A stretch of 39,848 nucleotides of DNA from Candidatus Thorarchaeota archaeon (lineage in GTDB: Archaea; Asgardarchaeota; Thorarchaeia; Thorarchaeales; Thorarchaeaceae), in assembly GCA_013388835.1 (NCBI GenBank), contig JACAEL010000053.1, positions 1-39,848 of the forward strand, written 5' to 3'. The position numbers and the translations under genes are program-made. The first letter of the stretch is position 1, and every line of letters starts with the position of its first letter. Positions 21,017 to 22,990 of the stretch are shown piece by piece. The notes under the pieces are model-generated. The model was given only the letters and a program-made list of their open reading frames with translations. It was not told the DNA's origin and did not search any database.

Positions 21017-21937
21017 TCACAGATACTCGCTTAGTGCAGCTTGGTCATTCATCTCTATGTTGTACCTCTCCTCAAGCGTGTAGCCGACGAAGCTCTTGAG
21101 GTTTGCAACTCTGAAAGTTGTCTGTTGCCTCACTACAAGGAGTGGGCCTTTTAGCCCCACCACCTCGCCTAGGAGCACGAGTCCTTCAGGGGGAATCTTG
21201 CTCTTTAAGAGTTGTGCTGGTGAGTCCAGACTCTGCAGACGATAGAACGATGATAGTTCCGTGACGGGCGGGGGCCATTCCTCAACTGTCACTCCGTCGG
21301 CGGTCAGGTACGTCTCAACGAACCCAGGTTTCAAGACGCGTGAGACGTTCTGTTGCGCTCTGGTGTAGTCGATGGTCCTGTCCAAGACTCCGGTCTTCCT
21401 CTCTGCTCTCACTGCCTTTGCGAAGTCTCTTGACCTGCTAATCCTGTCCTCGATGCGTCGTGCCAGTCTTCCACCTTGAATCTTGGCAAGTTTCACGCCG
21501 AAGTCAGCTCCCTGCTCCAACCACCTGACCATCATCCTTCCGTAGGTTGACACCCCGACCTTGATGAGGTCTTCTCCAAACACGGTCAGATAGAGCACAT
21601 AAGCAGCCTTTGAGCAGTCCAATGCTCTCTCTTCACTGGCTTGGCACACACTCCCCGTGCATCGGATACAGGCGTTCATCTCGTCCAGCGCCTTGCACGG
21701 TCCGCACTGAGTGAACGACGGGCGCACCATGCTTCTCTCTGGGCATCGTGTCATTGTGCCCTTGAGTCCCCGCGTCCCGATGCACTTTCGTGGCCCTCTG
21801 ATGAGCCACGATATCTGCCTTCCCGTGTCCAGCGGTACGAACAGCTCTGTGTCGCTCCCGTCAGGCCAGACGGTGAGACCCGACTCATAGTTGTGAGGCT
21901 GAGAGGTCTCACGCCACTTGACGTCGATTATCTGCGT
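21017..21937 (-). CDS. DUF2797 family protein with unresolved start codon
   Basis: The core is the DUF2797 pattern: YVLYLTVFGEDLIKVGVST, RWLEQGADFGVKLAKIQGGR, LARRIEDRIS, preceded by cysteines at CPERSMVRPSFTQCGPC, probably for zinc. Function is unknown. An ATG occurs only at 21754, but the frame stays open upstream to the TAG at 21950 and encodes family-like sequence (IIDVKW, ISWLIRGPRKCIG), so the true start is near 21930-21940. No ATG, GTG or TTG lies there in frame. GAGGTG sits at 21945-21950. Candidates are ACG 21935-21937 (chosen arbitrarily), ATA 21929-21931, or GTG 21945-21947 if one base is in error. Confidence 0.8.
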   Translation of the reverse strand, partial: TQIIDVKWRETSQPHNYESGLTVWPDGSDTELFVPLDTGRQISWLIRGPRKCIGTRGLKGTMTRCPERSMVRPSFTQCGPCKALDEMNACIRCTGSVCQASEERALDCSKAAYVLYLTVFGEDLIKVGVSTYGRMMVRWLEQGADFGVKLAKIQGGRLARRIEDRISRSRDFAKAVRAERKTGVLDRTIDYTRAQQNVSRVLKPGFVETYLTADGVTVEEWPPPVTELSSFYRLQSLDSPAQLLKSKIPPEGLVLLGEVVGLKGPLLVVRQQTTFRVANLKSFVGYTLEERYNIEMNDQAALSEYL

Positions 21938-21949
21938 GGTGATACACCT

Positions 21950-22990
21950 CTAGAAGATCAGATGCCGTCCCTGTCCCATCCACTTGACGCCGCGGATGTT
22001 CAGGTCAGAGTCACACCGGGGACAACGCCCCTGTGGATTCAGATTATTCCTCTTCAGATAGACCGAGAATCGCTCGACGGCCTTGTATCCACACTCTGGA
22101 CAGTATGTGTTCTCGGTGTCCATGCCGGGGATGTTCCCCGAGTAGACATAGGTAAGTCCCGCGCCCTTCGCCTCCATGATATGCCGTTCGAGAGTAGATG
22201 TGGGAGTTCGTGGCAGGTCCGTCATTTTGTACATGGGTGAGAACGCGGTGAGATGAAGTGGGGTTTCCGGACCAAGGTGTTCGACAATCCATGTGGCAAG
22301 CGCCCTTGTGTCTTCCGTCCTGTCTCCCACCTCTGGTATTATTAGATTCGTCAGCTCAATGAACACCCCGTGGTCTCTGTATTCTTCCAGTGCTCTGTAG
22401 ATTGGCTCCACCTTTGGGACGCCCATGTATCTCTTGTAGAACTCCTTGTTGCCTGAACCCTTGAAGTCCACAGTCACTGCATCGAGGTGGGGCGATATGT
22501 ATTCCACGCCCTCTGGTGTGATGTATCCATTGGTGACGAACGTATTGTACAGCCCATCTCTGTGTGCAATCACTGCGGTGTCGTGTGCCAGTTCCATGAA
22601 GATTGTGGGCTCTGTGTACGTATAGCTTATGCCTTGGCAGTCGTAACGTTGTGCCAGATGCACTATCTCTTCCGGGGAGATTCTCTGACCGACTGGTGAT
22701 TCTCGCTGCGAGGAGTGGTAGTTGAGACAGAACTGACAACGGAAGTTGCATGAGGATGTGCTGATGGAGAACGCAGAGGAACCGGGAGCAAAGTGAAACA
22801 GCGGTTTCTTCTCTATGGGGTCTGCTGCCATTCCATCCACCAGTCCATAGACAGTAGTGTAGAGGGCTCCATTCTCAACCACTCTGACTCGGCAGAGACC
22901 CTATTCGCCTTCTCTCACGACGCACCTTCTTGCACACAGGTCACACCGGACCCCGCCTCTGATGCTCTTCCACAAGACTGCCTCTTTCAT
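21950..22990 (-). CDS. AmmeMemoRadiSam radical SAM enzyme, interrupted by in-frame TAG
   Basis: The PflA-type radical SAM core has CNFRCQFCLNY, YTYTEPTIF, TFVTNGYI and VDFKGSGNKEFY, then a C-terminal zinc ribbon (CPECG...CPRCD). ATG 22988-22990 has GGTGA 6 nt upstream and opens the expected N-terminus, MKEAVLWKSIRGGVRCDLC then ARRCVVREGE. Codon 30 (22901-22903) is TAG, and the frame resumes at once with GLCRVRVVENGALY, which belongs to the same conserved region. Options are a nonsense mutation, a sequencing error (C or A to T) or a recoded amber codon. Translation from GTG 22880-22882 would lose the N-terminal cysteines. The family is often linked to AMMECR1 and Memo; neither is seen here. 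Confidence 0.8.

Follow-up and report, generated by a model that had tools for sequence, protein, structure and literature searches.

An in-frame amber codon in an AmmeMemoRadiSam radical-SAM gene of a Thorarchaeota MAG, probably an ordinary nonsense substitution in the assembled sequence

The AmmeMemoRadiSam system radical-SAM gene carried by the window (the whole stretch of 39,848 nucleotides analysed here, which is the entire contig C53 of the studied MAG, G000) is interrupted at codon 30 by an in-frame TAG, and this codon is probably a one-base nonsense substitution, present in the assembly within an otherwise normal gene and read as a stop by the standard code. Two forms of this explanation can be distinguished, and a wrong or minor-allele base in the MAG consensus, which we place at roughly even chances, is ranked above a fixed and very recent inactivation, which is possible but distinctly less likely. 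Such an isolated amber codon is ordinary, and it serves as an example of a MAG stop that is open to being mistaken for recoding.

The gene lies on the minus strand at 21950..22990 and encodes 346 residues when the TAG is read. Its assignment to the reading frame from ATG 22990 (codon 1), with the TAG at codon 30 (22901..22903, minus strand), was made by the first-pass annotation and is confirmed here; the codon reads 22903..22901, and the frame runs on to codon 347, where a second TAG (21952..21950, minus strand) forms the gene's own terminator and where relatives end too. The GGTGA upstream of the start had been placed 6 nt away by the same annotation, which is incorrect, as the motif stops 4 nt short of ATG 22990. 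The read-through protein scored 308.5 bits against TIGR04337 over residues 12-330, the cut-off being 220, and is 63-75% identical to Thorarchaeota orthologues. It shares with AmmeMemoRadiSam enzymes of that family the full-length match, the radical SAM CxxxCxxC, the N-terminal four-cysteine block and the single-copy state (the other match in the genome being a remote radical-SAM protein), and differs from them in the in-frame TAG at codon 30. The host MAG comprises 3,013,036 bases in 125 contigs, the longest of which reach 235 kb, and is 97.6% complete; the relatives used for comparison are Thorarchaeota MAGs.

Alignment of homologues at the TAG column, a check proposed in the first-pass annotation, was run, and each of the 109 other loci in the comparison proved to have a sense codon there and none a stop. 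Within Thorarchaeota the column holds Ser (TCA/TCG) in the closest genus, Thr in most others and Ala, Asn or Phe in some, while in Bathyarchaeota the residues vary widely; a single base separates the Ser codons of the nearest relatives from TAG. The column stands at the 80th percentile of variability among Thorarchaeota kin and at the 94th among Thorarchaeota plus Bathyarchaeota. It is flanked by four cysteines, C16, C19, C23 and C33 (22892..22945, minus strand), all at or before codon 33 and invariant in 27 aligned sequences ranging from Thorarchaeota to Bathyarchaeota. Private changes in the G000 gene number two, at columns invariant in 29 other sequences, among which the corresponding figure ranges from 0 to 7; since the gene thus stays within the range of its kin, long pseudogene decay is not indicated.

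Should the base be genuine and UAG act as a terminator, a 29-residue peptide would result. As codon 30 sits among the invariant cysteines, such a peptide would be useless, and initiation at GTG 22882 would drop the motif. Translation from that GTG, with the upstream block no longer coding, is a very unlikely alternative. The longest ORF after the TAG (21950..22882, minus strand) does reach 268.7 bits against TIGR04337 on its own, but it lacks all four N-terminal cysteines, the upstream block retains its sequence, start and Shine-Dalgarno, and GTG 22882 is without a convincing Shine-Dalgarno. A restart at this position is therefore not expected, and were it to occur, the loss of the four-cysteine motif would cost the enzyme.

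TAG serves as a normal stop in this genome, as the first-pass annotation had held. In the window it ends 12 of the 34 main ORFs, ZPR1 and the second ABC gene included, and among 738 coding-like ORFs in 0.94 Mb of G000 it ends 321 (~43%), with TGA ending 357 and TAA 60. Back-up stops within 5 codons past the TAG ends of this sample occur in 13.7% of cases vs 19.5% in the +1-frame control, and avoidance of TAGGG at gene ends was looked for in the G000 sample and not found. The notion of leaky TAG terminators was accordingly rejected, back-up stops being not in excess and contexts not avoided. Moreover, the AmmeMemoRadiSam terminator is itself TAG and shares its frame with the downstream DUF2797 gene (21017..21754, minus strand), so that the two would become one protein if every TAG were translated. 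The 60 genes ending in TAA, as a separate observation, have a back-up stop within 5 codons in 33% of cases, vs 14-18% for TAG and TGA.

Recoding of the TAG as pyrrolysine by a tRNA-Pyl, which was among the options of the first-pass annotation, is extremely improbable. Within the phylum, Sifarchaeia are known to decode pyrrolysine, and for Lokiarchaeia and Thorarchaeia the Pyl cluster has been reported missing with tRNA-Pyl "remnants" present (PMC9723677). The search for pylS and pylT, also proposed at first pass, was carried out. PylS (TIGR02367) was found neither in G000 nor in 36 same-family relatives, Methanosarcina acetivorans, among the positive controls, being matched, and the only genome over the cut-off among 58 relatives (G057) belongs to another family. 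The Ser and Thr of the kin at codon 30, together with the Ala, Asn and Phe of some, further argue against pyrrolysine at this column. The G000 case resembles the Sifarchaeia recoding (PMC9723677) in being Asgard and in having in-frame UAG alongside frequent UAG terminators, but differs from it in that PylS and a tRNA(CUA) were not found and the residue is not conserved.

Owing to the reported Thorarchaeia remnants (PMC9723677), a CUA tRNA was searched for by several routes. None was present among the 33 isotypes recovered with RF00005, ARAGORN run with introns and a covariance model tuned to CUA, which missed ~13 expected tRNAs too, and a whole-genome pattern search gave 19 matches vs 21 in the reversed control. 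A CUA tRNA is thus likely absent from G000, short of proof, given the ~13 tRNAs missed and the unusual intron positions of many tRNAs in this genome. The sole "tRNA-Pyl(CUA)" call, made by ARAGORN on C55 (11334-11730), is an intron artefact, as it involves a 304-base intron and overlaps a real tRNA-Gly(UCC); artefacts of this type might lie behind some of the reported Thorarchaeia tRNA-Pyl remnants. Many tRNA genes of G000 apparently possess D-arm or T-arm introns in addition to the anticodon intron, and are hidden from standard finders.

The first-pass annotation had also stated that nothing else is disrupted, which stands for the AmmeMemoRadiSam gene itself but not genome-wide. A scan for in-frame stops covering 0.94 Mb of G000 (about a third of the genome), based on coding potential followed by Pfam and NCBIfam, retrieved besides the window gene seven conserved genes with an in-frame stop, of which six have TAG, one has TAA and none has TGA. 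The TAG codons lie in RNAP A' (C22:16385, supported also by comparison with the relative G015), IDI-2 (C13:16828), a glycogen debranching enzyme (C40:18011), a DsrE-family gene (C5:4418) and two paralogues of aldehyde ferredoxin oxidoreductase, AOR (C60:1345 and C33:5538), and the TAA lies in PurD (C13:1369), by reason of which the initial impression of TAG only was rejected. In most of them the stop is bridged by one domain match, and in IDI-2 and RNAP A' by NCBIfam and solved-structure alignments. The TGA candidates of G000 that were checked turned out to be two adjacent genes or to have no domain bridging the stop, and foreign contigs as the source of the stops were rejected, the stop-bearing contigs as a group not being compositional outliers.

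Every relative found has RNAP A' and IDI-2 open, and as G000 possesses just one copy of each, a terminating stop in either would be lethal. As RNAP A', IDI-2 and PurD cannot be dead, either the consensus bases are wrong or of a minor allele, or the stops are read through. Comparison of 230 genes of G000 with G015 gave three clean in-frame stops, all TAG and with RNAP A' among them (88.5% identity over 646 aligned residues), none as clean in G015, and one frameshift per 230 genes, which is not raised. In comparison with nonsense variants and consensus errors of MAGs at large, the window gene is alike in having a lone one-base stop in a gene intact in relatives, a pattern to be compared with the in-frame TGA at residue 326 in the orthologous AmmeMemoRadiSam gene of another Thorarchaeota MAG of the same family (G035). 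G000 departs from that picture in that 0.94 Mb contain eight such stops, every one UAR and some in indispensable single-copy genes.

This set of stops brings in a further option beyond the three of the first-pass annotation, to which we accord a small chance, namely that UAG, and perhaps UAA, is sporadically decoded as sense in the G000 lineage. A weakened release factor would allow a near-cognate or undetected suppressor tRNA to read some in-frame UAR codons, so that nonsense would build up at tolerant sites, essential genes included, with UAR nevertheless kept as the terminator of most genes. Provided that the consensus bases are right, G000 does have in-frame UAR codons, seven TAG and one TAA, where homologues carry sense codons, within functional genes. 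The composition of these eight is consistent with the proposal, TAG accounting for 7/8 (P ~0.04) and TGA for 0/8 (P ~0.07) against a mutational opportunity for TAG/TGA/TAA of 0.51/0.28/0.21 derived from codon usage. The two AOR paralogues, which are 27% identical and both in the sample, bear the TAG at a homologous codon just before a conserved G-x-G; GG follows directly in 4 of the 7 in-frame TAGs, for which chance is ~5e-4, a post hoc figure. The two stop columns that are sufficiently sampled are both variable among homologues. The opposite explanation implies a substitution error rate of ~3e-4 per base, a value drawn from a nonsense fraction of 0.0325; this is high for contigs of up to 235 kb, and almost no frameshifts accompany it.

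The release factor of G000 also points in this direction. Its aRF1 (C16:15432-16490) carries NIKD as the stop-codon motif; in the 21 further Thorarchaeota sequences from the same family that cover this motif it is NIKS, or QIKS in one case, and since the codon is GAC, the Asp is at least two base changes away from Ser. In ciliates with reassigned UAR the motif reads KATNIKD (Tetrahymena) or EAASIKD (Paramecium), and human eRF1 given the Tetrahymena motifs shows strongly increased read-through of UAG (PMC4695839). G000 resembles these ciliates (PMC4695839) in the IKD of its release factor and in its in-frame UAR codons, but differs in that UAR still ends about half of its genes, back-up stops are not enriched behind TAG and the search for a suppressor tRNA was negative. 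NIKD or NIQD is present as well in two other Asgard genomes of other families (NIKD in f12, NIQD in f6) without known recoding, which counts against the motif as a sign of altered decoding.

Several of the results already described oppose sporadic decoding, including the share of gene ends held by TAG with neither back-up excess nor context avoidance, the failure to recover a CUA tRNA among the isotypes found, and the presence of a TAA among the stops. UAR terminators that are rare or backed up would be expected of a reassigned code, and the TAG terminators of G000 are neither. The sense residues at the stop columns differ by site, being Ser/Thr, Glu/Lys/Arg, mixed polar or Trp/Phe, and the RNAP A' column is aromatic, with Trp in G015 and Phe in solved archaeal structures. 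Taken singly, the points in favour of read-through are weak, and in part they are post hoc; a new code also starts from a low prior. Slightly smaller still is the chance we give to the full proposal, in which the lineage would read UAR, mainly UAG, ambiguously, the change from NIKS to NIKD in aRF1 weakening UAG termination and nonsense being tolerated in essential genes with UAG kept as one of the major terminators, which would make it an intermediate of reassignment without pyrrolysine. Were it to hold genome-wide, across RNAP A', IDI-2, PurD, the two AORs and the others, this MAG would represent a living intermediate of archaeal stop-codon reassignment.

Ordinary nonsense under the standard code remains the favoured explanation on account of the tRNA and pyrrolysine results, the normal TAG terminators, the mixed residues at the sites and the TAA among the stops, and is weakened by the high implied error rate, the few frameshifts, the TAG bias, the shared AOR column and the clean G015. 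Both the nonsense mutation and the base-call error suggested in the first-pass annotation therefore still stand, with the evidence leaning towards a wrong or minor-allele base, since the gene bears no signs of pseudogene ageing and the same kind of stop is found in indispensable genes of the assembly. We infer that the TAG base is unrepresentative of the living population.

The same scan applied to 1.05 Mb of G015 yielded no such stop but a likely selenocysteine TGA. It is situated in frame in a SelD-like gene of that relative, in the context THG*SCK, and looks like a selenocysteine codon.
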